64,000 nucleotides of DNA from Clostridium sp. AT4. Lineage in GTDB: Bacteria > Bacillota > Clostridia > Lachnospirales > Lachnospiraceae. Below the pieces are notes generated by a model that saw only the letters and a list, made by a program, of their open reading frames with translations, made no database searches and had not been told where the DNA came from. Made by a program: the position numbers and the translations under genes. The stretch spans positions 186,001 to 250,000 of the forward strand of contig NZ_LN999828.1 in NCBI RefSeq assembly GCF_001517625.2, read 5' to 3'. Shown here piece after piece: positions 19,895-58,536 of this stretch. How positions within the stretch are numbered: the first letter of the stretch is position 1; the number at the start of each line of letters is the position of its first letter.

Positions 19895-20803
19895 ATGAAG
19901 GGAATCATACTTGCCGGAGGAAGCGGAACCAGACTGTATCCGCTGACAAAGGTTACATCCAAGCAGCTTCTGCCTATTTACGATAAACCCATGATCTATT
20001 ACCCGCTGTCTGTGCTGATGAATGCAGGAATCCGGGATATACTGATCATTTCCACACCGGAGGACACGCCCCGGTTTAAAGCGCTTTTGGGAGACGGACA
20101 TCCCTTTGGCATCAATTTAAGCTATGCGGTTCAGCCAAGCCCCGACGGACTGGCTCAGGCCTTTATCATCGGAGAGGAATTTATCGGCGGCGATTCCGTT
20201 GCCATGGTTTTAGGCGATAATATTTTCCATGGACAGGGTCTTACAAAGCGGTTAAAGGCTGCGGCTGCCAGGGAAAAGGGCGCAACCGTGTTCGGCTACT
20301 ATGTGGACGATCCGGAGCGTTTCGGCATTGTGGAGTTTGATGAAAAGGGAAAGGCTATTTCCATCGAAGAAAAGCCGGAGAAGCCAAAGTCAAACTACTG
20401 TGTCACAGGACTTTATTTCTACGACAACCGTGTGGTAGAGTACGCAAAGAACTTAAAGCCTTCTGCCAGAGGAGAGCTGGAGATCACAGACTTAAACCGC
20501 ATCTATCTGGAAAACGGCGAGCTGGATGTGATCCTTTTGGGACAGGGCTTTACCTGGCTGGATACGGGAACCCATGAGTCTTTAGTTGAAGCTACCAATT
20601 TCGTAAAGACCGTAGAAACCCACCAGCACAGAAAGATTGCCTGCCTGGAGGAAATCGCCTACTTAAACGGCTGGATCACGAAGGAGCAGGTTCTTGAAAC
20701 CTATGAAGTGCTTAAGAAAAATCAGTACGGAAAGTATTTAAAGGATGTTCTGGACGGCAAATATGTGGATAAGCTGAAGGAACAGCAGAGTTTGGAGGAA
20801 TAG
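19895..20803 (+). CDS. rfbA: Glucose-1-phosphate thymidylyltransferase
   Basis: This 302-residue enzyme makes dTDP-glucose from dTTP and glucose-1-phosphate, the first step of dTDP-L-rhamnose synthesis. The nucleotidyltransferase signature [11 protein letters not shown] lies at residues 8-18, KPMIYYPLS follows at about 30-38, and LGDNIF and EEKPEKPKS are also conserved. The AAGGAGG site is 6 bp before the ATG. rfbB follows after 5 bp. Full length and apparently intact. Confidence 0.97.
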
Positions 20804-20808
20804 AATCA

Positions 20809-21831
20809 ATGAAGATCATCGTTACCGGCGGAGCCGGATTTATCGGAAGTAACTTTGTACACCATATGGTAAATAAATACCCGGATTATGAGATCATCAA
20901 TCTGGATCTTCTGACCTATGCAGGCAATCTGGAGAATTTAAAGCCGGTTGAAAATAAGCCCAACTACAAGTTCGTAAAAGGCGATATTGCAGACAGAGCA
21001 TTTATCTTCGATCTGTTTGAGAAGGAAAAACCGGATATGGTGGTGAACTTTGCGGCTGAGAGCCATGTAGACCGTTCTATTACTGATCCGGAAGCCTTTG
21101 TGCGTACCAATGTAATGGGAACTACTACACTGCTGGATGCCTGCCGTACCTACGGTATCAAGCGCTATCATCAGGTGTCAACGGATGAGGTGTACGGAGA
21201 TCTGCCATTAGATCGTCCGGATCTCTTCTTTACAGAGACGACCCCTCTTCACACATCCAGCCCTTATTCTTCCTCCAAGGCAAGCGCAGACCTTTTCGTG
21301 CTGGCTTACCACAGGACCTACGGGCTGCCTGTGACCGTATCCCGCTGCTCCAACAACTACGGTCCCTATCATTTCCCGGAGAAGCTGATCCCCTTGATCA
21401 TCAGCCGTGCTCTGGCAAATGAGGAGCTTCCCGTATACGGAACCGGTGAAAATGTCCGTGACTGGCTCCATGTGGCAGACCACTGCGAGGCCATTGATCT
21501 GGTGATCCACAAGGGCCGCGAGGGCGAGGTTTACAATATCGGCGGACACAACGAGCGCACCAATCTGGAGGTTGTGAAGACCATCTTAAAGGCCCTGGAC
21601 AAGCCGGAAAGCCTGATCCGCTTCGTTACAGACCGTCCGGGTCACGATATGCGCTATGCCATTGACCCCACCAAGATCGAGACAGAGCTTGGCTGGAAGC
21701 CAAAGTATAACTTTGACACAGGCATTGAACAGACCATCCAGTGGTACCTGGACAATCAGGACTGGTGGAAAAATATTTTAAGCGGCGAGTACAGCAGCTA
21801 TTTTGATAAAATGTACGGAAACCGCCTGTAA
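20809..21831 (+). CDS. rfbB: dTDP-glucose 4,6-dehydratase
   Basis: This 340-residue short-chain dehydrogenase-type enzyme converts dTDP-glucose to the 4-keto-6-deoxy sugar. The NAD loop GGAGFIGSNF is at residues 7-16, the STDEVYGDL segment carries catalytic Asp/Glu residues, and YSSSKAS gives the YxxxK catalytic pair. It follows rfbA by 5 bp. A 114 bp gap with an inverted repeat separates it from rfbD. Confidence 0.97.
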   Translation: MKIIVTGGAGFIGSNFVHHMVNKYPDYEIINLDLLTYAGNLENLKPVENKPNYKFVKGDIADRAFIFDLFEKEKPDMVVNFAAESHVDRSITDPEAFVRTNVMGTTTLLDACRTYGIKRYHQVSTDEVYGDLPLDRPDLFFTETTPLHTSSPYSSSKASADLFVLAYHRTYGLPVTVSRCSNNYGPYHFPEKLIPLIISRALANEELPVYGTGENVRDWLHVADHCEAIDLVIHKGREGEVYNIGGHNERTNLEVVKTILKALDKPESLIRFVTDRPGHDMRYAIDPTKIETELGWKPKYNFDTGIEQTIQWYLDNQDWWKNILSGEYSSYFDKMYGNRL

Positions 21832-21850
21832 ATAAGAGAAACAAACGTAT

Positions 21851-21901
21851 GGCTGACGGCGGCAAAGGCACTTAAAGAGAGTACATTTGCCGCTGCCAGC
21901 C
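21851..21901 (+). promoter_or_regulatory. Intercistronic inverted repeat between rfbB and rfbD
   Basis: GGCTGACGGCGGCAAA and TTTGCCGCTGCCAGCC form a long imperfect stem (three central mismatches) with a 19-base loop, followed by a weak T-run. Because rfbD continues in the same direction, it may be an attenuator or an mRNA-stabilising element rather than a full terminator. Confidence 0.55.
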
Positions 21902-21945
21902 TTTGTGCCATAGTAGAGATTCTAAAAGAATGAGGAGTTAAGGAT

Positions 21946-22806
21946 ATGAGAGTTCTGGTGACAGGTGTAAAGGGACAGTTAGGCCATGATGTGATGGATG
22001 AGCTGGCAGCAAAGGGAATCGAAGGCATTGGCGTGGATGTGGAGGAAATGGATATCACAGACGCAGATGCCTGCCAGAGAGTGATAAAGGAAGCAAAACC
22101 TGACGCAGTGATCCACTGTGCAGCATATACTGCAGTAGATGCGGCGGAAGACAATGTGGAGCTGTGCCGGAAGGTCAATGCAGACGGAACCAGAAATATT
22201 GCAAAGGTCTGCAAAGAGCTGGATATCAAGATGATGTACATCAGTACAGATTATGTGTTTAACGGACAGGGAGAACGGCCCTGGGAGCCGGATGACCACA
22301 GAGAGCCTTTAAATGTCTATGGACTGACAAAATATGAGGGTGAGATTGCAGTAGAGCAGAATGTGGAGAAATTCTTTACTGTCCGCATTGCCTGGGTATT
22401 CGGCATTAACGGAAAGAATTTCATCAAAACCATGCTGCGCCTGGGAAAGGAACGGGGAGCGGTGAGTGTAGTGGACGACCAGATCGGCTCTCCTACCTAT
22501 ACCTATGATCTTGCAAAGCTTCTGGTGGAAATGATACAGACTGACCGTTACGGCCGCTACCATGCTACCAATGAGGGACTGTGTTCCTGGTATGAATTTG
22601 CCTGCGAGATCTTTAAGCAGGCTGGTATGGATGTAAAGGTAAGTCCGGTGGATTCCTCCAGCTTTCCGGCTAAGGCAAAGAGACCATCAAACAGCCGTAT
22701 GAGCAAAGAAAAGCTCACAGAGAATGGCTTTGACCGCCTTCCCTCCTGGCAGGATGCTCTGGGACGATATTTAAAGGAGCTTAAGAAGGAAGGACAGGAG
22801 ATTTAG
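21946..22806 (+). CDS. rfbD: dTDP-4-dehydrorhamnose reductase
   Basis: This 286-residue reductase performs the last step to dTDP-L-rhamnose. The N-terminal loop GVKGQLGHDV (about 6-15), ISTDYVFNG (about 101-109) and YGLTKYEGE (YxxxK) are family marks. The epimerase gene rfbC is not adjacent but lies 21 kb downstream, so the four-step pathway is present but dispersed. An AGGAG site precedes the ATG. Confidence 0.96.
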   Translation: MRVLVTGVKGQLGHDVMDELAAKGIEGIGVDVEEMDITDADACQRVIKEAKPDAVIHCAAYTAVDAAEDNVELCRKVNADGTRNIAKVCKELDIKMMYISTDYVFNGQGERPWEPDDHREPLNVYGLTKYEGEIAVEQNVEKFFTVRIAWVFGINGKNFIKTMLRLGKERGAVSVVDDQIGSPTYTYDLAKLLVEMIQTDRYGRYHATNEGLCSWYEFACEIFKQAGMDVKVSPVDSSSFPAKAKRPSNSRMSKEKLTENGFDRLPSWQDALGRYLKELKKEGQEI

Positions 22807-34422: not shown

Positions 34423-34423
34423 A

Positions 34424-42496: not shown

Positions 42497-44155
42497 ATGG
42501 AAAAAAAAGGAAATATTTTGGGGCATAAGTGGGCGGCCGGGCCTTTGGCGCTGCTGTTTTTCCTGCTGTGGCACAGCCTGGATCTGAAAGCCTCTGTGAC
42601 AGAAACAGGAAATACCTGGCTGTTTGGCTGGTATGCAGGGCTTGGGGCTTTGGTGCTTGCAGCGGCGGTTTTTCTGGGGTATGAGCTGTTTATCCGCAGG
42701 AAAATGACGCTGGAAGCCTTGTTTGCGGTTTCGGTGCTGTGTCTGGGCGGGATTTATTCCCTAGTGCTCCCGCCTCTTTCTGCGCCCGATGAGGTAAGCC
42801 ACTATATCAGCGCCTATGAGTGTTCCAATCGTCTGATGGGGCTTCCTTCGGTCAATGAAAAGGGGCTGATCCAGATCCGGCCGGAGGACGCCTGGCTTGA
42901 AGATGTGGCGGATGTGCTGGCAGATGACGGAAGTGCTGAGGGCGGGGATGAAAAGCCCGTGATTTTAGGACAGAGCCTGACAGAAGAAACCTACAGGCGG
43001 ATCCATGAAGAACGTTCCGGTGAAAACGAAGCTGTTCATCGGGAGAACGTTCAAAGTTCTTCTTCTCAGGGCGCGGGTCAGATGGCAAGCTCTTATCAGT
43101 TTTCTGTGCGGACCACTCCGCTGGCCTATGGGCCTCAGGCTTTTGGTTTTGTCCTTGCAAGGCTTCTGGGACTTGGAAGCCTGGGCCTTTTGTATCTGGG
43201 ACGTCTGTTTAATCTGCTCTTTTTTGTAGCCGCCGGCTTTTTGACCTTAAGGCGGCTTCCCTTTGGAAAGACAGCCGTATTTGCCGTATATCTGCTGCCC
43301 ATGAACCTCCATCTGGTGTCTTCTTTATCGTATGATGTGCTGATTACGGCCTTCTGCGGGTATTTTACGGCAGTCTGCATGGATTTAGCCTATAAGGCGG
43401 ATAGGGTAAAATGGAAAGATGTGGTTCTTCTGGCATTTTTACTGGCAGTCATGGGACCCTGCAAGATGGTATACGGAGTGATCGCGGGGCTGTGCCTTCT
43501 GATCCCGGTGAAAAAGTTTGGGGGCTGGGGCCGGTGGACGGCTTCTGCGGCAGGGGTGCTGGGAGCCTTTGCGGCAGCCATGGCTGCAGTTAATCTGGGA
43601 ACCGTTTCCATGTATACTCAGGCAGAGGACAGCTATATTGCCTGGGCCGGAGAGACGGGATATACCTTTACGGAGCTGCTCCACCGTCCTCTTCATGTGC
43701 TGAAAATGTGTTATGACACGCTGGCGTGGAAGGGAACGCAGCTGTTTGAAGGAATGATCGGCGGCTCTCTGGGAAATCAGGATCCTGTTTTAAATACACC
43801 GACCGTGATCATATTGGCTCTGTGTACCATTTTAGTGGTGCTGGCGTTAAAAAAGCCGGGAGAAGAAGTGATGTTTTCCACAGGAAACAGGCTGTGGATC
43901 TGGTTTCTGGCGCTGCTGCTTTTAGGGGTGCTGATGTTTTCCATGCTGTTAGCCTGGACTCCCAGAAGCGCGTCCATGATTGAAGGCGTTCAGGGAAGAT
44001 ATCTGCTGCCCTTCCTTCCGGCGGTTCTGCTTACATTCCGCAGCAGCCGGGTGGTACGGACGGGAAGCGACGACAGAGGGCTGCTTTATGCGGTGATGAT
44101 GATGGATCTGTATGTGGCAGTGCGGATTTTTGCGGTGGTGTGCCTGCGGCTGTAG
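42497..44155 (+). CDS. DUF2142 polytopic membrane protein (GT-C candidate)
   Basis: This 552-residue protein has about 11-12 membrane helices and the DUF2142 signature LPPLSAPDEVSHYISAYECS (about 94-113). This includes the D-E pair in the first large external loop, where GT-C transferases place their catalytic acidic residue. It probably uses a polyprenyl-phosphate sugar to decorate an exported glycan. The ATG at 42497 is preferred over an upstream in-frame start inside the DUF2304 gene. Confidence 0.87.
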   Translation: MEKKGNILGHKWAAGPLALLFFLLWHSLDLKASVTETGNTWLFGWYAGLGALVLAAAVFLGYELFIRRKMTLEALFAVSVLCLGGIYSLVLPPLSAPDEVSHYISAYECSNRLMGLPSVNEKGLIQIRPEDAWLEDVADVLADDGSAEGGDEKPVILGQSLTEETYRRIHEERSGENEAVHRENVQSSSSQGAGQMASSYQFSVRTTPLAYGPQAFGFVLARLLGLGSLGLLYLGRLFNLLFFVAAGFLTLRRLPFGKTAVFAVYLLPMNLHLVSSLSYDVLITAFCGYFTAVCMDLAYKADRVKWKDVVLLAFLLAVMGPCKMVYGVIAGLCLLIPVKKFGGWGRWTASAAGVLGAFAAAMAAVNLGTVSMYTQAEDSYIAWAGETGYTFTELLHRPLHVLKMCYDTLAWKGTQLFEGMIGGSLGNQDPVLNTPTVIILALCTILVVLALKKPGEEVMFSTGNRLWIWFLALLLLGVLMFSMLLAWTPRSASMIEGVQGRYLLPFLPAVLLTFRSSRVVRTGSDDRGLLYAVMMMDLYVAVRIFAVVCLRL

Positions 44156-44174
44156 AGAGAAGCAGCATAAACAG

Positions 44175-44203
44175 TTGCACCCTTGTGGATAACGTGGTAA
44201 AAT
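44175..44203 (+). promoter_or_regulatory. Predicted sigma-A promoter of the rfbC-wzm operon
   Basis: TTGCAC and TAAAAT are separated by 17 bp, 74 bp upstream of the rfbC start codon. Confidence 0.65.
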
Positions 44204-44277
44204 TTCCTGATAGATGTGGAAAAGCGGCTTTCGGGCTGCTGAATGACTCAGGATGGATGAAAGAAGGAGAAAGAATC

Positions 44278-44832
44278 ATGGGAAAGATCAAAGTGACAAC
44301 ATGTGAAATTGAAGGACTTTATGTAATTGAGCCTACGGTTTTTAAGGATGAGAGAGGCTATTTTATGGAAACCTATAACCAGAATGACTTTAAGGAAGCA
44401 GGCCTTAATATGACCTTTGTACAGGACAATCAGTCCATGTCCGTAAAAGGCGTTTTAAGGGGCCTTCATTTCCAGAAGCAGTATCCTCAGGGCAAGCTGG
44501 TACGTGCGGTAAGGGGAACGGTCTTTGACGTTGCCGTAGACCTGCGTTCCGATTCCAAAACCTATGGAAAGTGGTTCGGCGTGACCTTATCTGCTGAAAA
44601 CAAGAAGCAGTTTTACATTCCGGAGGGCTTTGCACACGGTTTTCTGGTTCTCTCTGATGAGGCGGAGTTTGCCTACAAGTGCACAGACTTCTATCATCCG
44701 GGCGATGAGGGCGGCCTTCTCTGGAGCGACCCTGAGATCGGCGTAGAGTGGCCTATCGAGCCGGGAATGGAGCTGATCATTTCCGAGAAGGATAAGAAAT
44801 GGAGCGGTCTTAAGGATACCTTTAAATTCTGA
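44278..44832 (+). CDS. rfbC: dTDP-4-dehydrorhamnose 3,5-epimerase
   Basis: This 184-residue cupin enzyme completes the dTDP-rhamnose pathway. FKDERGYFMETYNQNDF (about 22-38), VLRGLHFQ (His in the active site, about 60-67) and FAHGFLVLSD are family marks. An AAGGAGAAAGA site precedes the ATG at 44278; the longer frame starting upstream would lie over the promoter. It is followed 18 bp later by the ABC exporter permease, linking rhamnose supply to export. Confidence 0.96.
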   Translation: MGKIKVTTCEIEGLYVIEPTVFKDERGYFMETYNQNDFKEAGLNMTFVQDNQSMSVKGVLRGLHFQKQYPQGKLVRAVRGTVFDVAVDLRSDSKTYGKWFGVTLSAENKKQFYIPEGFAHGFLVLSDEAEFAYKCTDFYHPGDEGGLLWSDPEIGVEWPIEPGMELIISEKDKKWSGLKDTFKF

Positions 44833-44850: not shown

Positions 44851-45663
44851 ATGAATTATGCAGTTTCTCTGTTAAAGGAGATTATTACAAAGCGAAAGCT
44901 CATATGGGATCTTGGAAAGGCTGATTTCAGAAAACGGTTCGTGGGTTCTTACTTCGGTATTGTATGGATGTTTATTCAGCCCATTGTGACCGTAGTCATT
45001 TATGCGGTGATTTTCGGAATCGGTTTTAAGTCTCCGCCGCCTGTTCCTGGAGTCAGCTATGTGGCATGGCTGGTTCCGGGCATTGTACCCTGGTTCTTTT
45101 TCAGCGAGGCGTTAAACACAGGAACGGGCTGTCTTCAGGAATACAGCTATCTGGTCAAAAAGGTGGTTTTCAAAGTAGAGATCCTGCCGATCATCAAGCT
45201 GATTTCCTGTCTGCTGGTCCATGCCTTTTTCGTGCTGATCATGGCGGGAATGTACCTGATCGCCGGGATGCCGGTGCGCGTTACCTGGATCCAGGTTCTC
45301 TATTATACCTTTGCAGCCTCTGTGCTGGTGCTGGGACTGGGATATTTTACAGCTTCTGTCAATGTATTTTTTAAGGATATGGCTCAGATCGTGGGAATCT
45401 GCCTGCAGTTTGGCATCTGGCTCAGCCCCATTATGTATCATGAATCTATGTTTACAGACCGTATGCCCTGGATGGAACCGATTTTTAAACTGAATCCTTT
45501 TTACTATATCGTCACCGGATACAAGGACAGCATGATTACAGGCAACTGGTTCTGGGAGCGGCCGAAGCTGACGCTGTATTACTGGGCCTTCACCCTGATC
45601 GTACTTCTTTGCGGACTTAAGATGTTTAAAAAACTCAGGCCTCATTTTTCCGATGTTCTGTAA
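44851..45663 (+). CDS. wzm: Polysaccharide ABC exporter permease (Wzm family)
   Basis: This 270-residue protein has about six membrane helices and the ABC-2 pattern (KADFRKRFVGSYFG-like segment ADFRKRFVGSYFGIVW, about 24-39; WFFFSEALNTGTGC). The stretch SPIMYHESMFTDRMPW is typical of teichoic acid and O-antigen exporters. The ATPase partner wzt is 3.4 kb further on, separated by a metalloprotease-like gene, thioredoxin, chromate transporter genes and a LysR regulator. That split is unusual. Confidence 0.92.
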   Translation: MNYAVSLLKEIITKRKLIWDLGKADFRKRFVGSYFGIVWMFIQPIVTVVIYAVIFGIGFKSPPPVPGVSYVAWLVPGIVPWFFFSEALNTGTGCLQEYSYLVKKVVFKVEILPIIKLISCLLVHAFFVLIMAGMYLIAGMPVRVTWIQVLYYTFAASVLVLGLGYFTASVNVFFKDMAQIVGICLQFGIWLSPIMYHESMFTDRMPWMEPIFKLNPFYYIVTGYKDSMITGNWFWERPKLTLYYWAFTLIVLLCGLKMFKKLRPHFSDVL

Positions 45664-46269: not shown

Positions 46270-46299
46270 GTACCCTGATTTCCGGCTGCGGGACAATAA

Positions 46300-46354
46300 A
46301 AGAGGATTGAATGCTTCGTTTGACAGATATCGCAGCGAAGGGTTCAATCCTCTT
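46300..46354. terminator. Bidirectional hairpin terminator after ygjP and trxA
   Basis: AAGAGGATTGAA pairs perfectly with TTCAATCCTCTT around a loop that holds an inner CTTCG/CGAAG stem. It lies between the convergent ygjP-like and trxA genes. Confidence 0.85.
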
Positions 46355-46367
46355 ATGTGTTTATGGT

Positions 46368-46685: not shown

Positions 46686-46787
46686 ATATATTACCTCCTG
46701 TAAATGTGAATTCGTTTTCTGTTGTATATAGGATACCACAGCCGCCCCTCTTTTTATGTGATAAAAGTCACGAAACAGAAAAAATAT

Positions 46788-47962: not shown

Positions 47963-48131
47963 GGGTGAACTCCTTTTAAAACGGGAAGTATTCCCGGTTA
48001 TTTTGCCGGAAAATCCATCCGGCATTCCTACTATACGCCTTGCAGATACATATGTAAAATACTATAATATTATAATATATATAATGAAAATATTATGAAT
48101 ATACGAATCAGTGAAAGAAAGGAGAAGGATC
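47963..48131. promoter_or_regulatory. AT-rich divergent control region between chromate genes and lysR
   Basis: This 169 bp gap contains a run of A/T with overlapping TATAAT-like and ATATTAT sequences (about 48055-48100), the expected layout for divergent promoters controlled by a LysR-type protein. Exact operators could not be fixed by eye. Confidence 0.6.
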
Positions 48132-49013: not shown

Positions 49014-49052
49014 TTTTTATTCTTTTTACCAGTATAAAAATTTGCCATTGTA

Positions 49053-49061
49053 TGATATACT
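49053..49061 (+). promoter_or_regulatory. Candidate extended -10 promoter for the wzt operon
   Basis: TGATATACT is an extended -10 (TGn plus TATACT), 52 bp upstream of the chosen wzt start. No clear -35 is visible, which is common with an extended -10. Confidence 0.5.
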
Positions 49062-49113
49062 TATCCCTAAAGTGGAGAATTATGCAGTTATGCAACTAGA
49101 TATGGAGAACGAT

Positions 49114-50538
49114 ATGGAAGTAAGAGAACAGGAAAATGCCATCAGCGTCCGGGACGTGACCAAGGTCTACCGGCTGTATGACAAGCCCATTGACCGTTTA
49201 AAGGAATCGATGAGCATTTCCCATAAAAATTATCACAGGGACTTTTATGCTTTAAGCGGACTTTCCTTTCAGGTAAAGAAGGGGGAAACCGTAGGGATCA
49301 TCGGTACAAATGGTTCCGGAAAGTCTACCATTTTAAAGATTATCACCGGAGTGCTGACGCCAACCACCGGGCAGGTGGATGTAAACGGCAAGATTTCCGC
49401 CCTTTTGGAGCTGGGAGCCGGTTTTAATATGGATTATACGGGAATTGAAAATATCTACATGAACGGCACCATGATGGGCTATACGAAAAAGGAGATGGAT
49501 GCAAAGCTTCAGGATATTCTGGATTTTGCTGAAATCGGAGATTTTGTCTATCAGCCGGTAAAGACCTATTCCAGCGGTATGTTTGTCCGTCTGGCCTTTG
49601 CTCTTGCGATCAACGTAGATCCTGAAATTCTGATCGTAGATGAGGCTCTGTCGGTAGGAGATGTATTCTTCCAGTCCAAATGCTACCGCCGGATGGAGGA
49701 GATCCGCAAAAAGGGCACGACCATCCTGATGGTTACACACGATATGGGAAGCATTATCAAATACTGTGACCGGGTGGTTCTGCTTCATAAGGGCGAATTT
49801 ATCGCTGAAGGGCCTGCGGGCAAAGTGGTGGATATGTATAAGAAGATTCTGGCCGGAAAGCTGGAGGAGCTGAAGGCGGAGCTGGCAGCAGGAGTCCATA
49901 AAACGGATCAGCAGTCCGGCACAGAGGATGACCTTTCCGATTTCTCAGGCGGTATGGACGTAGACGGCCTTGTTGATGCACAGCTGGCAAAAAAAACATT
50001 TCTTGACAGCCATGAGAGCGCCGGAACTACAAATCAGCATCCCAAGGGGCTGATGCGCGATCAGATGACGATCAATTCAGACCGCACGGAATATGGCGAC
50101 GGACGGGCGGAAATCTATGATCTGGGTCTTTTAGACGCCAGAGGCAATATTACAAATCTCCTGTTAAAAGGAGAGATGTTTACTATCCGTGAATGCATCC
50201 GTTTCCATGCGGATATTCAGTCGCCTATTTTTACCTATACCATTAAGGATAAAAAGGGAACGGAGCTCACTGGCACCAACACCATGTTTGAGGGAGCGGA
50301 CATTCAGCCGGTGAAAAAGGGCGAGGAATATGTGGTGGAATTTACCCAGAAGATGACCCTTCAGGGCGGTGAGTACCTGTTAAGCATGAGCTGTACCGGC
50401 TTCGAGGCCGGAGAGCATACGGTATATCACCGTTTGTATGATGTGACAAATATTACTGTTATTTCCAATAAAAACACCGTGGGCGTTTACGATATGGAAT
50501 CCCAGGTGAAAGCGGAAAAGAGGAAAGCAGATGAATGA
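49114..50538 (+). CDS. wzt: Polysaccharide ABC exporter ATPase with carbohydrate-binding C-terminus (Wzt)
   Basis: This 474-residue protein has an ATPase domain (Walker A GTNGSGKST, K70; signature YSSGMFVRLAF; Walker B ILIVDEALSVGD), a linker (about 240-320) and a C-terminal Wzt_C-type beta-sandwich (about 320-465). In O9a-type systems this C-terminal domain recognises the capped end of the glycan before export. The ATG at 49114 has GGAG 6 bp upstream; earlier in-frame ATGs (49090, 49102) remain possible. It overlaps the giant enzyme gene by 8 bp, which fits the terminal capping it may sense. Confidence 0.92.
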   Translation: MEVREQENAISVRDVTKVYRLYDKPIDRLKESMSISHKNYHRDFYALSGLSFQVKKGETVGIIGTNGSGKSTILKIITGVLTPTTGQVDVNGKISALLELGAGFNMDYTGIENIYMNGTMMGYTKKEMDAKLQDILDFAEIGDFVYQPVKTYSSGMFVRLAFALAINVDPEILIVDEALSVGDVFFQSKCYRRMEEIRKKGTTILMVTHDMGSIIKYCDRVVLLHKGEFIAEGPAGKVVDMYKKILAGKLEELKAELAAGVHKTDQQSGTEDDLSDFSGGMDVDGLVDAQLAKKTFLDSHESAGTTNQHPKGLMRDQMTINSDRTEYGDGRAEIYDLGLLDARGNITNLLLKGEMFTIRECIRFHADIQSPIFTYTIKDKKGTELTGTNTMFEGADIQPVKKGEEYVVEFTQKMTLQGGEYLLSMSCTGFEAGEHTVYHRLYDVTNITVISNKNTVGVYDMESQVKAEKRKADE

Positions 50539-53500
50539 TATAAGCTATGAGATTCTGGATCTCTTTAAAAAATACGGCTCCGATCCGGAGGGGATTCAGA
50601 AAATCCTTGAAAATGACAGCCGTCCGGAGGTGTTGTATGCTCTTTCCGATGTCCGGAAAAATCTTTTCGACTGGATGGAGCTGGAAAAATGTGAAAATGT
50701 ACTGCAGCTGGATTCCGGCTATGGGGTTCTCACCGGATTGTTTGCAGAGTGCTGCGCCCATGTGACTGTAACGGACCGCAGGGATGAAAATCTGGTGGTG
50801 AATGAGCAGAGAAACAGCAGTGCGGACAATATTTCCTATATAAAAGAAAACGATTGGAAGAAGGAAGACCACAGAGAAGCTTACGATCTTGTGGTTTTAG
50901 AATCTTCCCGCCCGGACATGGACTTAAAGGTCGTTGTAAAGGAGGCTTCTCAGTATGTAAAACAGGGAGGCCGTCTGGTGTTTTCCTGTGAAAATGCCCT
51001 GGGACTGTGCTTTTTATCTGGTGCTGTCCATGATGAGGATGAGAGTGCATTTACCAAGGGAGAACTGGAGGCGGCTTTTCGTGAGGCAGGCCTTGAAACC
51101 GTAGAATTTTATTATCCCATGCCGGAGTATAAGCGGGCTCAGACGGTGTATTCCGACCGGTATCTTCCCGGAAAGGGCGATATTCCCCATGTGACCGCAG
51201 TCTATGACCGCCAGCGCTGGGCCTGCATCCATGAGGATGAGATTTCCGATAAGCTGGTTCAGGAAAAGGCCTTTGGACTTTTCGCCAATGCCTATCTGGC
51301 AGTGGCCTCTAAGGAGCAGGAGCCCTTTGATACGATTTTTGCAAAATATAACCGGACCAGAAAACCTCAGTTTCAGATCCGCACCCGCATTTTAGAAGAA
51401 AATGGAAAGCGATATGTGGAAAAGGCTGCTCTTACAGAGGCATCCGGAGCACATATTGGTTCTATGGAGGAAAAGCATGAGAAGCTCTCCAAGGTAAATC
51501 CTGAAGTTCATGTGCTGGAACCGCATTTTTCTGAGGATAAACAGGCGGTACGGTTTGAGTTTCTTACAGGAAAGACGCTGGCAGAGGAGCTTGGCGGGCA
51601 GATCCGGGGAAAGAAGGCTCCGGTTGAGGCAATTCAGGCAGCGATGGAGCAGGTATTCTCAAAGGCAGCCCTGCGCCCGGAGTCCTTTTATGTGACGCCG
51701 GAATTTCTGGAGGTGTTTGGAAGGGATCCGGCAGAAGATTCACAGGATAGCGCTCCGGGAGAACTGGAACAGCAGCTGTCTGCCCTGTCGGATGCTTCCT
51801 ACGCAGTCAGCAATATTGACGGCCTGTTTGAAAATCTGATGGTAAGCGGCGGCAAGCTGTACTGCCTGGATTATGAATGGGTCTTTGATTTCCCTGTTCC
51901 GGCAGGTTTTGTCCGCTATAGGAATCTGGTTTATTTCTATTATAAATATGAAGGCCTGATGGACTATGAAAATGCAGCTGATTTCCTGAAGGAATTCGGA
52001 ATCGGGGAAGAACTGTCCGGGCTGTATGCTGCCATGGAGGAATCCTTCCAGTCCTGGGTACACGGAGACGGCACTCAGGGGTATATGGGTAATTATAAAC
52101 AGCGTCTGGTGACCTTAGAGGAATTAAAGGCCCAGGAAAAGGAACTGGATCAGGCCAGAGAGCGGATCAACCAGCTTCAGGAAGAGGTGGAGGAGCGCAA
52201 TATTCAGGTGAAAAAGGATCAGGAGATTCTGCGCCTTACCAATAATCATGTAAAGAACCTGGAAATCATGATTAAGGATCTGCGCCATGAGATTGACGAG
52301 CTGGGTAAGCTTGCCACCTATTTGAATGGTCATGAAGCGGCTGTATACAAGCTTCGCAGAAAGCTGGGGGTTCAGGTCAATAAGGCATTCCCAAAGGGAA
52401 CCAGAAAGCGCAAGGTATTGAACTACTGCTTCCATACGGTGCGCCACCCTGCAAGATACATGAAGATGTATGCCACCAAAGAGGGCCGTAACCTGATTGA
52501 GGGTGATTTTAAGATTGGCGAGGGCTATCTCACCGGAGGCCACCTTTCCTTCCCGCAGTATCCGGGAGAGGGAAAAGAGGGAAAAAATGGCTGGGAAGGG
52601 CCCTTAGTCTCCATTGTGATCCCCTGTTATAACCAGATCCACTACACCTATGCCTGTCTTCAGTCCATTCTGGAATATACGAAGGACGTGACCTATGAGG
52701 TCATCATTGCAGATGATGTGTCAACAGATGCAACGGCGGAAATCAGCCGTTTTGTGGACGGGCTGGTGATCTGCCGCAATCAGACCAATCAGGGCTTTTT
52801 AAGAAACTGCAACCAGGCGGCAAAGGCAGCCAGGGGCAAATATATCATGTTTTTAAATAATGATACCAAGGTGACGGAAGGGTGGCTATCTTCTCTGGTG
52901 AAGCTGATCGAATCCGACCCGTCTATCGGTATGGTAGGCTCCAAGCTGGTGTATCCGGACGGACGTCTTCAGGAGGCCGGAGGCATTCTGTGGAGCGACG
53001 GCTCCGGCTGGAACTATGGGCGGCTGGATGACCCGGATAAGGCAGAGTACAACTATGTAAAGGACGTGGACTACATTTCCGGCGCCGCCATCCTTTTATC
53101 CGTTCAGCTCTGGAAGCAGATCGGCGGCTTTGACGAGCGGTTTGCTCCTGCCTACTGTGAAGATTCTGATCTGGCCTTTGAGGTGAGAAAAGCCGGATAC
53201 CGGGTGGTATATCAGCCTCTATCCAAAGTCATTCATTTTGAAGGGGTGTCCAACGGTACGGATGTAAACGGTACGGGCCTGAAGCGGTATCAGGTGGAAA
53301 ACAGCAAAAAGCTTCGGGAAAAATGGGCGGATGAGTTTAAGCGTCAGTCTGTCAATGACGGAAATCCCAATCCATTCAGGGCAAGGGAGAGAAGCCAGGG
53401 TAAAAAGGTGATCCTGGTAGTGGATCACTATGTGCCTACCTTTGATAAGGACGCAGGCTCCAAGACCACCTATCAGTATCTGAAAATGTTCCTGAAAAAG

Positions 53501-54553
53501 GGCTATGTGGTAAAATTCCTGGGAGACAACTTCCTCCATGAGGAACCCTATTCCACGGCTCTCCAGCAGATGGGAATTGAGATCCTCTACGGGGATGACT
53601 GGGCTTCCGGTATCTGGGACTGGCTGAAACGGAATAAGGATGAAATTGATTTTGCCTATTTAAACCGGCCCCATATTGCCACAAAATATGTGGACTTTAT
53701 TAAGGAAAATACGAATATCAAAGTGATTTATTACGGCCATGACCTTCATTTCCTGCGTCTGGGACGGGAGTATGCTCTTACAGGCGATATTTCAATCAAG
53801 CGTGAGGCTGATTACTGGAAAGCCATTGAGCTGTCCATGATGCGGAAGGCGGCCATTTCCTATTATCCGTCCTATGTGGAGGTAGATGCCATCCACAAGA
53901 TTGACCCGGAAATCCCGGTAAAGGCCATTACAGCCTATGTATACGATGAATTTCTTGCCAATATCCAGGAGGACTTCGCAAAGAGAGAAGGACTGCTCTT
54001 TGTAGGCGGATTTGCTCATCCGCCCAATGCGGATGCAGTGCTGTGGTTCGCACAGGAGATCTTCCCGCTGATCCGGGAAAAACTTCCGGAGATAAACTTC
54101 TATGTGGTAGGATCCAAGGTTACGGATGAGATAAAGGCCCTTGAGCAGCCTGGAAACGGAATTATCATAAAGGGCTTTGTCAGCGAAGAAGAGCTGGCGG
54201 AGCTGTATGCCTCCTGCCGAATCGTAGTCGTTCCCCTGCGGTACGGGGCCGGCGTAAAGGGCAAGGTAGTCGAAGCCATCTACAACGGAGCCCCCATTGT
54301 CACAACCGGCACCGGAGCCGAAGGAATTCCGGAGGTAGAAACCATACTGGAAATCGAGGATGATCCGGCTGCATTTGCAGAAAAATGTGTATCTCTCTAC
54401 AACGATCCTGCCCGCTGCCGGAGTATGTGTCACGCCACTCAGGACTATATCCGCAGACACTTCAGCCTCGAAGGCGCATGGAAGGTGATAGAGGAGGACT
54501 TTCGCGACAGCAGTGAGCAGTGCAGCCATGCAGAATTTCACGTTGAAAAGTAA
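50531..54553 (+). CDS. Giant methyltransferase / kinase-like / coiled-coil / GT2 / GT4 fusion
   Basis: This 1340-residue protein has five parts. Residues 1 to about 235 are a SAM methyltransferase-like fold (VLQLDSGYGVLTG loop, VVLESSR). Residues about 240-515 are an APH/WbdD-like kinase fold with K298 (YVEK), the catalytic loop D430-xxxx-N435 (NIDGLFENLM) and D447 in LYCLDYEWVF. A charged coiled coil spans about 525-600, then a stem KLRRKLGVQVNKAF. A GT2 domain starts near 693 (VSIVIPCYNQ; IIADDVSTD) and a GT4 domain near 958 (VGGFAHPPNADAV; PLRYGAGVKGKVVEA). E. coli WbdD carries methyltransferase, kinase and coiled-coil ruler, while WsaE combines a methyltransferase with rhamnosyltransferases; this joins both ideas. 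Functions are inferred from motifs. Confidence 0.88.
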   Translation: MNDISYEILDLFKKYGSDPEGIQKILENDSRPEVLYALSDVRKNLFDWMELEKCENVLQLDSGYGVLTGLFAECCAHVTVTDRRDENLVVNEQRNSSADNISYIKENDWKKEDHREAYDLVVLESSRPDMDLKVVVKEASQYVKQGGRLVFSCENALGLCFLSGAVHDEDESAFTKGELEAAFREAGLETVEFYYPMPEYKRAQTVYSDRYLPGKGDIPHVTAVYDRQRWACIHEDEISDKLVQEKAFGLFANAYLAVASKEQEPFDTIFAKYNRTRKPQFQIRTRILEENGKRYVEKAALTEASGAHIGSMEEKHEKLSKVNPEVHVLEPHFSEDKQAVRFEFLTGKTLAEELGGQIRGKKAPVEAIQAAMEQVFSKAALRPESFYVTPEFLEVFGRDPAEDSQDSAPGELEQQLSALSDASYAVSNIDGLFENLMVSGGKLYCLDYEWVFDFPVPAGFVRYRNLVYFYYKYEGLMDYENAADFLKEFGIGEELSGLYAAMEESFQSWVHGDGTQGYMGNYKQRLVTLEELKAQEKELDQARERINQLQEEVEERNIQVKKDQEILRLTNNHVKNLEIMIKDLRHEIDELGKLATYLNGHEAAVYKLRRKLGVQVNKAFPKGTRKRKVLNYCFHTVRHPARYMKMYATKEGRNLIEGDFKIGEGYLTGGHLSFPQYPGEGKEGKNGWEGPLVSIVIPCYNQIHYTYACLQSILEYTKDVTYEVIIADDVSTDATAEISRFVDGLVICRNQTNQGFLRNCNQAAKAARGKYIMFLNNDTKVTEGWLSSLVKLIESDPSIGMVGSKLVYPDGRLQEAGGILWSDGSGWNYGRLDDPDKAEYNYVKDVDYISGAAILLSVQLWKQIGGFDERFAPAYCEDSDLAFEVRKAGYRVVYQPLSKVIHFEGVSNGTDVNGTGLKRYQVENSKKLREKWADEFKRQSVNDGNPNPFRARERSQGKKVILVVDHYVPTFDKDAGSKTTYQYLKMFLKKGYVVKFLGDNFLHEEPYSTALQQMGIEILYGDDWASGIWDWLKRNKDEIDFAYLNRPHIATKYVDFIKENTNIKVIYYGHDLHFLRLGREYALTGDISIKREADYWKAIELSMMRKAAISYYPSYVEVDAIHKIDPEIPVKAITAYVYDEFLANIQEDFAKREGLLFVGGFAHPPNADAVLWFAQEIFPLIREKLPEINFYVVGSKVTDEIKALEQPGNGIIIKGFVSEEELAELYASCRIVVVPLRYGAGVKGKVVEAIYNGAPIVTTGTGAEGIPEVETILEIEDDPAAFAEKCVSLYNDPARCRSMCHATQDYIRRHFSLEGAWKVIEEDFRDSSEQCSHAEFHVEK

Positions 54554-54637
54554 GCTCGCTTACTTTTCGACGGGGAAAGCTGCATGGCTATAGGGCGAAC
54601 GCCTGCGACCGAGGAAACGCGCAGCGTTTTCGAGGTC
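54524..54637. repeat. Nested inverted repeats at the end of the giant gene
   Basis: An outer 10 bp stem (AGCCATGCAG at 54524, CTGCATGGCT at 54580) encloses an inner 14 bp stem (54541-54554 with 54559-54572, one G-U pair) over the stop codon. A second hairpin (GACC/GGTC with AAACGC/GCGTTT, 54607-54637) follows. It may be a terminator or processing element, or the scar of a small repeat insertion. Confidence 0.7.
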
Positions 54638-54676
54638 AGCACTGAGGAATTTAAGTATACATTTAAGGAGAACAAA

Positions 54677-55384
54677 ATGCAGGCAATACTTCTCGCCGGA
54701 GGTCTGGGCACCCGTTTACGCAGCGTCGTAAGCGACCGTCCCAAGCCAATGGCTCTCATACAGGAAAAACCATTTATGGAGTACGTTACCAGAGAACTGG
54801 TGCGAAACGGCGTCAGGGATATTATTTTTGCCGTAGGCTATAAGGGCTCCATGGTGGAAGAATATTTTAAAGACGGCAGCGATTTTGGCTTTCATGCAGC
54901 TTACGCCTATGAGGAAACCCTCCTAGGCACCGCAGGGGCCATTAAAAATGCCGGAAAATTCATTACAGAGGATCGTTTTTTCGTTCTCAATGCAGATACC
55001 TTTTACCAGATTGACTATACAAGACTGGTAAGGCAGCAGGATGAGCAGCAGCTGGACATGGCGCTGGTGCTGCGCAGAGTGCCGGACGTATCCCGCTATG
55101 GTCAGGCTGTTTTAGATGAAAAGGGCATCCTTACAGGCTTTAATGAAAAGACACAGGAGGCAGAATCCGGCACCATAAACGGCGGTATTTACCTTATGAA
55201 AAAAAGCCTTTTAGACGAGATTCCGGAGGGAAAGGTATCTCTGGAAAATGACAGGATTCCCTGCTGGCTGTCAGAGGGAAAGCGGCTGGGCGGCTTTGTA
55301 AATGACGGTTATTTCATTGATATCGGTATTCCGGAGGCTTATTTCCAGTTCCAGAGGGATGTAGAAACAGGCGTTGTCCGGTAG
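54677..55384 (+). CDS. hddC: D-glycero-alpha-D-manno-heptose 1-phosphate guanylyltransferase
   Basis: This 235-residue nucleotidyltransferase has AILLAGGLGTRLRSVVSDRPKP-type opening residues (LAGGLGTRLRSVV at 5-17; KPMALIQEKPF) and VLNADTFYQID. With the next three genes (kinase, phosphatase, isomerase) it matches the GDP-D-glycero-alpha-D-manno-heptose pathway described for S-layer glycans. AAGGAG lies 6 bp before the ATG. The assignment depends partly on the neighbours; it could accept another sugar-1-phosphate. Confidence 0.88.
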   Translation: MQAILLAGGLGTRLRSVVSDRPKPMALIQEKPFMEYVTRELVRNGVRDIIFAVGYKGSMVEEYFKDGSDFGFHAAYAYEETLLGTAGAIKNAGKFITEDRFFVLNADTFYQIDYTRLVRQQDEQQLDMALVLRRVPDVSRYGQAVLDEKGILTGFNEKTQEAESGTINGGIYLMKKSLLDEIPEGKVSLENDRIPCWLSEGKRLGGFVNDGYFIDIGIPEAYFQFQRDVETGVVR

Positions 55385-55407
55385 GTAAGAAACGGAAGGA
55401 GAAAAAT

Positions 55408-56478
55408 ATGGTAATCAGAGGCAGAGCGCCCCTGCGGGTCAGCTTCGGCGGAGGCGGCACGGATGTAGCCCCTTTCTGCGAGGAGCAGGGCGGCGCAATT
55501 ATTGGGAGCACCATCAATAAATATGCCTACTGCTCTATCGTACCCAGAGAGGACGATCAGATCATTGTCCATTCTCTGGATTTCGATATGACAGTAAAGT
55601 ACAATACAAAGGAAAACTACGTCTATGACGGCCGTCTGGATCTGGTAACAGCGGCTCTTAAGGCGATGGAGATCAGCCAGGGCTGCGAGGTATATTTACA
55701 GTGCGACGCGCCTCCCGGCTCAGGCCTTGGAACCTCCTCTACTGTGATGGTAGCCATGCTTACGGCTATGGCAAGATGGAAGGGGATCATGATGGACGCC
55801 TATGCCATGGCGGATCTGGCCTATCAGGTGGAGCGGCTGGATTTAAAGATTGACGGCGGCTATCAGGATCAGTATGCGGCGGCCTTCGGCGGCTTTAATT
55901 TTATTGAGTTCCACGGCAGAAACAACGTAGTTGTAAATCCCTTGAGAATCAAAAAGGACATTATCCATGAGCTGCAGTACAACCTTTTACTGTGCTATAC
56001 GGGAAATATCCATGTATCTGCCAACATTATCAGGGATCAGGTACAGAATTACGAGAAAAAGGATGCCTTTGAGGCCATGTGTGAGGTAAAGGCCCTGGCT
56101 TATGCCATGAAGGACGAGCTGTTAAAGGGAAACCTCCACAGCTTCGGAAAACTCCTTGACTATGGATGGAAAAGCAAAAAGCGCATGAGCAGCAAGATCA
56201 CCAATCCTCAGATTGATATGCTTTATGACGAGGCGATCAAGGCCGGAGCCCTGGGAGGAAAGCTCCTTGGAGCCGGCGGCGGCGGTTATCTTCTCATGTA
56301 CTGCCCATACAATGTGCGCCACAAGGTAGCGGCCCGTATGGAGCAGGCAGGAGGCCAGCTGGCAGACTGGAATTTTGAACTGCGCGGAGCCCAGAGCTGG
56401 GTGGCAGACGAGGAGCGCTGGAAGTACGATCAGGTAAAGGTTCATATGCCAAATAAGATTTATACCTTTGATCTGTAA
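55408..56478 (+). CDS. hddA: D-glycero-alpha-D-manno-heptose 7-phosphate kinase (GHMP)
   Basis: This 356-residue GHMP kinase has the ATP loop PPGSGLGTSSTVMVAML (about 106-122), an N-terminal PLRVSFGGGGTDVAPF and a C-terminal GGKLLGAGGGGYLLM motif. It should phosphorylate D-glycero-D-manno-heptose 7-phosphate at C1. Homologues occur for fucose and other sugars, but the four-gene cassette supports heptose. It starts 23 bp after hddC. Confidence 0.9.
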   Translation: MVIRGRAPLRVSFGGGGTDVAPFCEEQGGAIIGSTINKYAYCSIVPREDDQIIVHSLDFDMTVKYNTKENYVYDGRLDLVTAALKAMEISQGCEVYLQCDAPPGSGLGTSSTVMVAMLTAMARWKGIMMDAYAMADLAYQVERLDLKIDGGYQDQYAAAFGGFNFIEFHGRNNVVVNPLRIKKDIIHELQYNLLLCYTGNIHVSANIIRDQVQNYEKKDAFEAMCEVKALAYAMKDELLKGNLHSFGKLLDYGWKSKKRMSSKITNPQIDMLYDEAIKAGALGGKLLGAGGGGYLLMYCPYNVRHKVAARMEQAGGQLADWNFELRGAQSWVADEERWKYDQVKVHMPNKIYTFDL

Positions 56479-56491
56479 GCAGGAATGAGAT

Positions 56492-57067
56492 ATGGAAAAA
56501 ATTGTATTTTTGGACCGGGACGGCACGCTGAATGAAGAGGTAAATTATCTGCACCGTCCGGAGGATATGCATCTGCTAGCCGGGGTGCCGGAAGCTTTGA
56601 GAAGGCTTAAGGAGGCCGGATTTAAGCTGGTGGTGGTCACCAATCAGGCCGGGGTAGCCAGAGGATATTATACGGAAGAGGATGTAAAAGTCCTTCATCG
56701 GTATATGAATGAGCTGCTGGCGGCAGAGGGGGCCGAAATAGACGGCTTTTATTACTGTCCCCACCATCCGGTTCACGGAATCGGGAGCTATAAAAAGGAG
56801 TGCAGCTGCCGGAAACCGGGAATCGGTATGTTTTTGCAGGCAGAAGAGCGGTTTACAGCAGATAAGTCCCATTCCTATATGATTGGAGATAAGCTTTTAG
56901 ACACGCAGGCGGGGAAGAACTACGGTGTGACCTCCATTCTGGTAGGAACGGGATATGGGAAGGAGCTTTATGAAGCCAGTCAGGCGAAGAAGGATGAAGC
57001 GCCCTCATATGATTATTATGCAGAGAATCTGCCCCAGGCTGCGGACTGGATTTTAAGGCGGCAGTAA
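56492..57067 (+). CDS. gmhB: D-glycero-D-manno-heptose bisphosphate phosphatase (HAD)
   Basis: This 191-residue HAD phosphatase has the motif FLDRDGTLNEEVNYL (DxDGT nucleophile at about 7-11), VVTNQAGVARG (motif II) and the Cys/His zinc cluster YYCPHHP...CSCRKP typical of GmhB. It removes the C7 phosphate of heptose 1,7-bisphosphate. It starts 13 bp after hddA and is part of the same operon. Confidence 0.93.
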   Translation: MEKIVFLDRDGTLNEEVNYLHRPEDMHLLAGVPEALRRLKEAGFKLVVVTNQAGVARGYYTEEDVKVLHRYMNELLAAEGAEIDGFYYCPHHPVHGIGSYKKECSCRKPGIGMFLQAEERFTADKSHSYMIGDKLLDTQAGKNYGVTSILVGTGYGKELYEASQAKKDEAPSYDYYAENLPQAADWILRRQ

Positions 57068-57110
57068 AGCAGAGGCGTGATATATTTCAGGAAAAAAGAG
57101 AGGTAACAGG

Positions 57111-57761
57111 ATGAACGGCAGTAAGGTAGATTTGATTCTTAAGGAGTTGATGGAGCGCTATCCGGTACTGATGCCTGTAAAAGAGGACATTTTTAAGACA
57201 TATGAAATTCTCAGGGATGCCTTTTTGCAGGATGGAACGCTTCTCATAGCCGGAAACGGCGGAAGCTGTGCGGACAGCGAGCATATTGTGGGGGAACTGA
57301 TGAAGGGGTTTGTAAAACGGCGTCCGGTGACTCCTGCCTTTGAACAGAAGCTTAAGGAGGCAGAGCCGGAGCTTGGAGAGGAACTGGCAAAGCGGCTTCA
57401 GGGGGCTCTTCCTGCCATTGCCCTTACGGGTCATCCCGCCCTTTCCACAGCCTTTTTAAATGATGTGGACGGAAGCATGGGCTTTGCACAGCAGGTCTAT
57501 GGTTACGGAAGAAAGGGAGACGTATTTTTAGGAATTACCACCTCCGGAAATTCAAAGAATATCCTGTATGCAGCAGCTGTGGCAAAAGCAGCAGGCTTAA
57601 AGGTCATTGGCCTTACAGGAAGGGATGGCGGCCGTTTAAAGGCGATGACGGATGCCTGTATTGTGGTTCCGGAGCAGGAAACCTTTAAGATACAGGAATT
57701 TCATCTGCCGGTTTATCATGCCCTGTGCCTGATGTTAGAGGAGTATTTTTATGAGGTATAA
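57111..57761 (+). CDS. gmhA: Sedoheptulose 7-phosphate isomerase (SIS)
   Basis: This 216-residue SIS-domain protein catalyses the first committed step to D-glycero-D-manno-heptose 7-phosphate. AGNGGSCADSEHIVGELMKGF-type residues (GNGGSCADSEHIVGEL at about 47-62) and GITTSGNSKNI (about 143-153) are family marks. It overlaps the next GT2 by 11 bp and follows gmhB by 43 bp. It completes the set needed to make GDP-heptose from sedoheptulose 7-phosphate. Confidence 0.94.
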   Translation: MNGSKVDLILKELMERYPVLMPVKEDIFKTYEILRDAFLQDGTLLIAGNGGSCADSEHIVGELMKGFVKRRPVTPAFEQKLKEAEPELGEELAKRLQGALPAIALTGHPALSTAFLNDVDGSMGFAQQVYGYGRKGDVFLGITTSGNSKNILYAAAVAKAAGLKVIGLTGRDGGRLKAMTDACIVVPEQETFKIQEFHLPVYHALCLMLEEYFYEV

Positions 57762-58536
57762 GCACGTGTTTGCCATTCCGGCCTATGGGCAGTCGCCCTG
57801 GCTGGAAACCTGTATCCGCTCTTTAAAGGCTCAGAGCCAGCCGTCGCCGGTTATCCTCTGTACATCTTCTCCCAGTGAATTTTTAGAGCAGATGGCAGAG
57901 AAGTATGAGCTACCCCTTTATGTGCGCCGGGGAGAGAGCAGCATCCGGGATGACTGGAATTATGCCTATGAAATGGCAGATGGGGAATATGTGACGATTG
58001 CTCATCAGGATGATGTGTATCATAAGGAGTATGCGGCAGAGCTTTTGAAGGCAGCCGGAAAATGGCCGGATATGACGGTTTTCACAACGGATTACGTGAT
58101 TACAAAGGGCGGAAAAACCATTACAGGAGACAGGCTTTTGTGGGTGAAACGCATCCTGCGCCTGCCTCTTCGCTGTCCTGCGTTTAATGGCTTTACCTGG
58201 GTAAAACGCCTGCCTTTGATGCTTGGAAACTCCATCTGCTGCCCTGCGACCACCTACCACAAGTCCCTGTTGGGAGAACCTCTTGTGCGTTCTGAGTACA
58301 GCTACGCGTTAGACTGGGATAATCTGGTGCAGCTTGCAGAGCGTCCGGGCCGTTTTATCTGCCGTGAAAAGCCTCTTATGTATTATCGGGTTCACGACGG
58401 GGCGGCGACAAAGGCCTGTATGGAGGATAACCGGAGGGCAAAGGAGGAACGGGAAATGTTTGCCCGTTTCTGGCCGGAGCCGGTGGTCCGGTTTTTGATG
58501 CGGGGATATGCCTCTGCATATAAGGAATACGAGTAA
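57751..58536 (+). CDS. GT2 glycosyltransferase
   Basis: This 261-residue GT2 has HVFAIPAYGQSPWLETCIRSL at the N-terminus (split: HVFAIPAYGQSPW and LETCIRSLKAQ), the DD-type motif IAHQDDVYHKEYA (about 89-101) and a C-terminal YYRVHDGAATKACM. It overlaps gmhA by 11 bp, so it may be the heptosyltransferase of this cassette; that is inferred from position. Confidence 0.85.
   Translation: MRYKHVFAIPAYGQSPWLETCIRSLKAQSQPSPVILCTSSPSEFLEQMAEKYELPLYVRRGESSIRDDWNYAYEMADGEYVTIAHQDDVYHKEYAAELLKAAGKWPDMTVFTTDYVITKGGKTITGDRLLWVKRILRLPLRCPAFNGFTWVKRLPLMLGNSICCPATTYHKSLLGEPLVRSEYSYALDWDNLVQLAERPGRFICREKPLMYYRVHDGAATKACMEDNRRAKEEREMFARFWPEPVVRFLMRGYASAYKEYE

Follow-up and report, generated by a model that had tools for sequence, protein, structure and literature searches.

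A candidate phosphate-only terminator-polymerase of an exported surface glycan, with a degraded methyltransferase domain, in Clostridium sp. AT4

Results and discussion

A stretch of 64,000 nucleotides of Clostridium sp. AT4 (contig NZ_LN999828.1, positions 186,001 to 250,000; hereafter the window) contains a large gene whose product joins a methyltransferase-like domain, a kinase domain, a coiled coil and two glycosyltransferase (GT) domains, GT2 and GT4-like. Its sequence leads us to favour, on balance, a phosphate-only terminator-polymerase of a surface glycan exported by an ATP-binding cassette (ABC) transporter, with a methyltransferase that has been retired or repurposed. The methyltransferase motifs are lost in one clade of gut Lachnospiraceae, and for this clade we see an even chance that a methylphosphate terminator turned into a phosphate-only one: the methyltransferase would survive as a conserved pseudo-enzyme whose new role is non-catalytic, and the kinase, coiled coil and polymerase would still cooperate. 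In the family, methyltransferase and kinase have been split or fused repeatedly.

Domain organization of the large gene

The start of the gene shares 8 bases with the end of wzt, and the sequence GAGG lies 7 bases 5′ of the ATG. The gene and its parts are as follows.

50531..54553, + strand: open reading frame of 1340 amino acids with ATG start, glycan polymerase-terminator candidate
50531..51265, + strand: methyltransferase-like domain, residues 1 to about 245, without YSDG element and LEY motif; motif I reads LQLDSGYG (58-65)
51266..52075, + strand: APH-like kinase domain, residues about 246-515, with K298, hinge-like FEFLTG (342-347), D430, N435 and D447 in LDYEWVFD
52112..52330, + strand: coiled coil, putative ruler, residues about 528-600
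52331..52597, + strand: linker from coiled coil to GT2, residues about 601-689, possibly in contact with the membrane
52601..53245, + strand: GT2 domain, residues about 691-905, with NND (776-778) and EDSD (877-880); nearest to the second GT2 of the O7-type protein
53798..54481, + strand: GT4-like domain (Pfam Glycosyl transferases group 1), residues about 1090-1317

The reading frame, Pfam and profile comparisons confirmed the 1340-residue protein and the domain order given by the initial annotation. Pfam placed GT2 at 694-818 (E 9e-27) and Glycosyl transferases group 1 at 1154-1292 (E 1e-24); "GT4" is the term of the initial annotation, the CAZy number being unassigned. Methyltransf_11 was matched below threshold at residues 62-151 (E 0.0018), NCBIfam UbiG over 18-163 (E 4e-6) under its own cut-off, and no kinase family was among the Pfam matches of the protein.

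Relatives were studied at 80 loci obtained from a scan of genome contigs, among at least 90 confirmed; their architectures were counted without scoring the coiled coil. One chain with methyltransferase, kinase, GT2 and GT4 was found at 21 of the 80 loci and one with kinase, GT2 and GT4 but no methyltransferase at a further 19. The five-part order is therefore real and no chance assembly.

Kinase domain

The kinase alignment has 66 rows, the window and 65 of the 80 loci; most of the 15 loci outside it are cut, interrupted or near-copies, L069 being left out without such a reason. K298, D430-xxxx-N435 and D447, taken as an intact kinase site in the initial annotation, stand where it placed them and are invariant in 66/66 rows, as are K272, R277, T285, F396 and the string DYEWVFDF. 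When the 66 domains were compared with Pfam at E ≤ 1, 25 families were matched, each in one or two members, and none was named kinase. Using hhalign, the family profile matched 14 APH proteins at 76.9% (E 2e-5), in a comparison that favours the catalytic motif, since both the APH and the protein-kinase sequences had been selected with a regular expression containing it (passed by 14/30 and 4/30 fetched loci, respectively). In this alignment K298, the hinge-like FEFLTG, D430-x4-N435 and D447 fall on their APH equivalents. Fifteen unrelated neighbour families used as negatives all scored below 1%, and reversed controls at most 0.1%.

Several results weigh against an APH-like kinase. The four protein kinases scored 18.3% (E 0.0013 over 22 columns), and the part N-terminal to the catalytic loop, compared alone with APH, gave a non-significant 1.1% (E 0.05). 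Against the same APH set the rows of the window clade (defined below) alone gave 21.3%, the rows with an intact methyltransferase 79.6%, but over 48 columns only, and a two-row O7-type profile 1.2%, that is, no match. The best match in PDB was the JAK1 N-lobe, with K298 on the JAK1 lysine, at a non-significant E of 0.1.

A closer counterpart was found in proteins of the Klebsiella pneumoniae O7 ORF6 type, represented by a Pseudomonas asturiensis plasmid protein (L090) and a Citrobacter homologue (L091), which served as proxies for the K. pneumoniae sequence. L090 has all six SAM-site (S-adenosylmethionine) residues, Y28, Y66, G91, G93, E112 and Y158, at the numbers printed for O7, and its likely catalytic Asp at 443. 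The kinase of the window family alone matched the two proxies at 97.8% (E 6.8e-13), and methyltransferase and kinase in series matched them at 100% (E 7e-51, 475 columns). D430 aligns with D443 of L090, two residues off the catalytic Asp of the O7 paper, D441. The best reading of residues about 246-515 from these comparisons is thus an APH-like kinase of O7 type. The WbdD-like kinase of the initial annotation stood as to APH and gave way to the O7 type as to WbdD: WbdD was tried as the nearest relative and fits less well than O7, and it was not among the 12 PDB sequences matched by the kinase profile at E ≤ 10, no direct WbdD comparison being part of this search.

The domain itself is conserved. 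All 15 kinase positions invariant in 28 relatives with intact methyltransferase are kept, at 95% or more, in the 32 kinase rows of the window clade. A hidden Markov model (HMM) built from the intact relatives scored the window clade at 196-235 bits and the intact rows, most of them training rows, at 200-279; with 11.6 bits for L090 and L091 unlisted, the kinase sequences of window family and O7 type are remote.

Decay of the methyltransferase domain

Three elements are common to distant relatives and the O7-type proteins: a YSDG-like one at the N-terminus, to which O7 Y28 belongs, motif I, and a GVLEY-like one with O7 Y158. In the methyltransferase alignment none of the 29 window-clade rows has the YSDG or the LEY element. 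Of the other 33 rows (31 relatives and the two O7-type proteins), 30 carry the YSDG element, and all 33 match relaxed versions of motif I and LEY. Three further clade rows (L040, L041, L051) lack all three motifs and a further relative (L054) has all of them. Measured against the six residues named for the O7 SAM site, the window protein has no equivalent of Y28 and Y158, carries D61 for G91 and D82 for E112, and has kept Y36 and G63. Among the 28 intact rows 47 positions never vary; in the 29 clade rows just 9 of these hold at 95%, 38 having been released. An HMM of the intact methyltransferase gave 95-157 bits in the window clade (window 128) versus 226 and 220 for the two gammaproteobacterial O7-type proteins.

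Both trees place the loss in a single clade: 32 rows in the kinase tree (support 92/89, stem 0.14 changes per column) and 29 rows in the methyltransferase tree (100/99, stem 0.95 changes per column). Its neighbours in the kinase tree are L059, L060 and L070 (92/74). The methyltransferase is intact in L059 and L070 (by motifs) and in L064 (437 bits; outside the trees), and these three carry GT2 (71-74%) and GT4 (54-57%) domains similar to those of the window. Outside the window clade, L049, L057 and L079, all among the 33 rows, are partly decayed, with Glu as the second Gly of motif I in L049 and L057; these are possibly separate losses. Taken together, the sequences indicate that the methyltransferase of the window clade probably lacks a working SAM site, which makes the methyl half of the capper model of the initial annotation doubtful.

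A second member of the methyltransferase family was not found at E ≤ 0.01 in the clade loci, which extend to at most about 22 kb, apart from one marginal frame at window 934-1878 (E 0.0099); a replacement methyltransferase of this family at these loci was considered and rejected.

Coiled coil and glycosyltransferases

In residues 528-600, I, L, V, M or F occupies 14 of 21 a/d positions versus 7 of 52 others. On shuffling, 1 in 5000 shuffles was as good, compared with 708 in 5000 for a control stretch (246-330), which bears out the coiled coil of about 75 residues named in the initial annotation. Kinase and GT2 are 174-191 residues apart in the 31 clade rows measured (all of the 32 but L020) and 140-156 apart in L059, L060 and L070; such a narrow spacing fits a ruler, as far as sequence can tell. 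The GT2 domain of the window is closer to the second GT2 of L090 (29%, E 3e-27) than to the first (23%, E 2e-7); in O7 the second GT2 module is reported to add alpha-1,3 rhamnose (PMC11231755).

Distribution, fusion and fission

A separate methyltransferase frame lies upstream in 18 of the 19 loci whose chain holds kinase, GT2 and GT4 but no methyltransferase; L028 is cut and could be fused. In 21 of the remaining loci methyltransferase and kinase form one chain whose tail is different or whose end is cut (L008 cut, L016 seemingly interrupted); in the other 19 they are encoded by separate genes, again with different tails or cut ends. The two are adjacent at 78/80 loci, L028 and L082 beginning too late for judging, and the kinase tree requires at least 10 transitions between fused and split forms. 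At L016:3664-5766 the gene looks interrupted, a 700-residue frame (methyltransferase, kinase and the start of GT2) being followed by a separate frame.

Among the loci listed, the nearest relative of the window is from Enterocloster alcoholdehydrogenati (L006). In a sample of 398 genomes from the phylum, 11 were matched by the kinase profile; this count includes the genome of the window, and several of the matches are partial and weak. Two phage records from human faeces (Bacteriophage sp., MT839147.1 and MT836085.1) hold relatives of about 28% identity, the first matching query residues 7-919 in two segments and the second residues 8-512; these are either phage cargo or bacterial carry-over. 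Five loci (L044, L046, L048, L058, L079) come from metagenome bins labelled Chloroflexota, Bacteroidota, Campylobacterota and Omnitrophota, which means either wide transfer or mislabelled bins.

Comparison with known chain terminators

K. pneumoniae O7 ORF6 is described as one chain of methyltransferase, kinase, carbohydrate-binding module (CBM), coiled coil and two GT2 modules that makes a methylphosphate cap (PMC11231755). According to the same source, the domain that follows the methyltransferase and precedes the coiled coil, left unannotated, is a kinase resembling AmiN, phosphate transfer and incomplete methyl transfer occur in vitro, D441A abolishes in vitro phosphorylation as well as surface O-antigen and export in vivo, and the C-terminal half holds two rhamnosyltransferases. 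The window protein repeats this order, running from methyltransferase and kinase through the coiled coil to the polymerase GTs within a single chain next to Wzm/Wzt, and the O7-type locus L090 has the same Wzm-Wzt-terminator order. It differs in that its last module is GT4-like, no stretch after the kinase is assigned to a CBM, the methyltransferase is decayed, the host is a member of Bacillota and the kinase sequence is remote. From its sequence we would assign it to the O7 ORF6 type of terminator-polymerase, but do not class it as a methylphosphate terminator because several of the O7 SAM-site residues are missing or replaced and so few of the methyltransferase invariants are kept.

WbdD of Escherichia coli O9a also combines methyltransferase, kinase and coiled coil, and the spacing of its catalytic residues (D351, N356, D369; PMC3482155) agrees with the Asp-Asn-Asp spacing of the window protein within one residue. 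However, WbdD recruits a separate polymerase, whereas GT2 and GT4 are in the same chain here. In E. coli O8, WbdD makes a methyl-only cap and is reported to be without kinase activity (PMC3482155). On our reading the window protein would be its mirror image: the kinase is lacking there, and the degraded part is the methyltransferase here. K. pneumoniae O12 WbbB is likewise a single chain made up of a terminator, a coiled coil and a pair of polymerase GTs, as described in PMC11231755, but terminates with 3-deoxy-D-manno-oct-2-ulosonic acid (Kdo) and not with phosphate. WsaE of Geobacillus stearothermophilus, a Gram-positive, has a methyltransferase and two rhamnosyltransferases in one chain and works with an ABC transporter; by its description (PMC2943079) it differs in being trifunctional, with a methyl cap and no kinase.

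A single-chain capper, ruler and polymerase, as proposed in the initial annotation, remains the best reading in view of the kinase, the coiled coil, the two GTs and Wzm/Wzt, but it is not without precedent: O7 ORF6 and WbbB are known, and with O7 ORF6 a one-chain capper-ruler-polymerase is already known in kind. What is new is a family in Bacillota (Enterocloster-like) that carries a GT4-like module and has been fused and split repeatedly, and, across one clade, a methyltransferase that has decayed next to a kinase that has not changed. No phosphate-only or Bacillota form of the terminator was found in a literature search that covered few subscription journals. As far as the sources go, described coiled-coil chain terminators belong mostly to Gram-negative O-antigens, and the window family extends the strategy to gut Clostridia.

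Transporter and sugar-supply genes

Genes for export and sugar supply in the window are listed below.

49042..50538, + strand: Wzt, ABC transporter ATPase with C-terminal carbohydrate-binding domain (348-485), Wzt_C E 2e-42
44851..45663, + strand: Wzm, ABC-2 permease
44140..44832, + strand: RmlC-like dTDP-4-dehydrorhamnose 3,5-epimerase
19895..22806, + strand: rmlA, rmlB and rmlD (deoxythymidine diphosphate-L-rhamnose, dTDP-L-rhamnose), each above its own family cut-off
54584..57761, + strand: hddC-, hddA-, gmhB- and gmhA-like genes for supply of guanosine diphosphate (GDP)-D-glycero-D-manno-heptose; only gmhB passed the NCBIfam cut-off; present in part of the clade loci
57751..58536, + strand: stand-alone GT2

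The adjoining Wzt with a carbohydrate-binding domain, noted in the initial annotation, was thus recovered. At 66 of the 77 loci with enough upstream DNA (L090 and L091 counted), no more than 300 bases separate the end of a Wzt homologue from the methyltransferase frame; among the remaining 11, L035 and L090 overlap by more than the limit of 200, as stop-to-stop frames were used. In 31 clade loci the median identity to the window is 0.86 for the carbohydrate-binding domain and 0.87 for the ATPase, and in four loci of a neighbouring group the carbohydrate-binding domain is 0.56 identical to that of the window. Uniformity within the clade is as expected if its members share an end group.

The gene hddA turned up at 14 of the 31 decayed loci but at none of the other 34, some of which are short; L011, L012, L013 and L015 extend about 8 kb past the large gene and have no hddA match. 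Heptose as the polymer of the large enzyme was rejected: hddA is patchy across the clade while GT2 and GT4 are conserved, and heptose is therefore more likely added elsewhere. Since rmlA, rmlB, rmlC and rmlD are all in the window as well, L-rhamnose is the likelier backbone sugar and heptose would be a decoration.

Proposed mechanism and alternatives

We propose a polymerase-terminator working at the membrane side. The C-terminal GT2 and GT4 domains would extend a lipid-linked chain, probably containing L-rhamnose, and the kinase, held at the far end of the coiled coil, would stop growth by phosphorylating the non-reducing terminus when the chain has become long enough to bridge the coiled coil. 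The carbohydrate-binding domain of Wzt would then recognise the capped end, and Wzm/Wzt would export the chain. In the window clade the phosphate is probably no longer methylated, leaving a plain phosphate cap, and the methyltransferase domain would be retained as a structural or otherwise repurposed part. Such a cap is mechanistically plausible because phosphorylation by WbdD alone suffices for chain termination (PMC3482155) and O8 caps with methyl alone. For the same reason the capper role can survive loss of the SAM site, on which the initial annotation had made it depend; by sequence that site is probably gone, and the wider model can stand.

Some observations speak against loss of methylation, and with it for a methyltransferase that is active through a remodelled SAM site and makes a methylphosphate cap as in K. 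pneumoniae O7. Motif I is kept in its strict form, E-x-G-x-G-x-G, in 5 of 29 clade rows; residue 82 is acidic (D/E) in 60/60 rows, and N155, G164 and Y195 are each present in 60/60. In eight pairs the ratio of nonsynonymous to synonymous substitution rates (dN/dS) of the methyltransferase is 0.07-0.25, similar to that of the kinase and indicative of purifying selection, with dS near saturation in some; a pseudogene is ruled out by these low values. Given the kept residues and purifying selection, some ligand may still bind. The Wzm-Wzt-terminator order shared with L090 also suits an active enzyme, and the carbohydrate-binding domain of Wzt shows no extra change at the transition, identity being 0.57 between clade and sister loci (ATPase 0.79) and 0.48 between intact pairs (0.66). 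Accelerated change of this domain at the loss of the methyltransferase was thus looked for and not seen, the difference being no larger than elsewhere in the family. With the equivalents of Y28 and Y158 missing, G91 replaced by D61 and most invariants released, we nevertheless regard an active methyltransferase as unlikely. The fold might instead have been repurposed for another ligand or group, the cap being a different phosphate derivative, as could be read from the low dN/dS and from residues newly fixed in the clade (A37 in 29/29 rows versus H37 in 28/28 intact rows, N87 in 25/29 versus R87 in 28/28); there is no candidate ligand, and this seems to us distinctly improbable.

The least probable of the explanations weighed here is that the protein is no terminator at all, its kinase acting on backbone or side sugars and chain length being set by transporter stoichiometry, as reported for K. 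pneumoniae O2a (PMC11231755). The only characterised relative found is O7, which leaves some room for it. However, the O1/O2 transporter is described as having no carbohydrate-binding module (PMC11231755) and the Wzt of the window has one, and a kinase placed across a coiled coil from the polymerase is the terminator layout of the same source.

A natural comparison is at hand between related GT2-GT4 polymerases in which the methyltransferase is intact (L059, L064, L070) and those in which it has decayed (the window clade). With it one can ask whether a phosphate by itself suffices to cap the chain, control its length and be recognised by the transporter; why O9a needs two activities and O8 one is left open, from the other side, in PMC3482155.

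Other features of the window

Between wzm and wzt (45670-49013) lie genes for a YgjP-like protein, a chromate transporter and a LysR regulator; a YgjP relative was found in 9 of 82 loci and a LysR relative in 4 of 82. Downstream, two frames at 58552-60933 (793 amino acids) and 60973-62835 (620 amino acids) are matched by no Pfam family above threshold and by no NCBIfam model, and have relatives in 17 and 11 of the 82 loci, respectively. Near polysaccharide genes lie a UDP-galactopyranose mutase (27730-28827), a LicD-family protein (34415-35320) and, on the minus strand, an L,D-transpeptidase with choline-binding repeats (35402-36913). The G + C content of window positions 6001-16000 is 0.35-0.39 versus 0.44-0.52 around it, which suggests a separate island.

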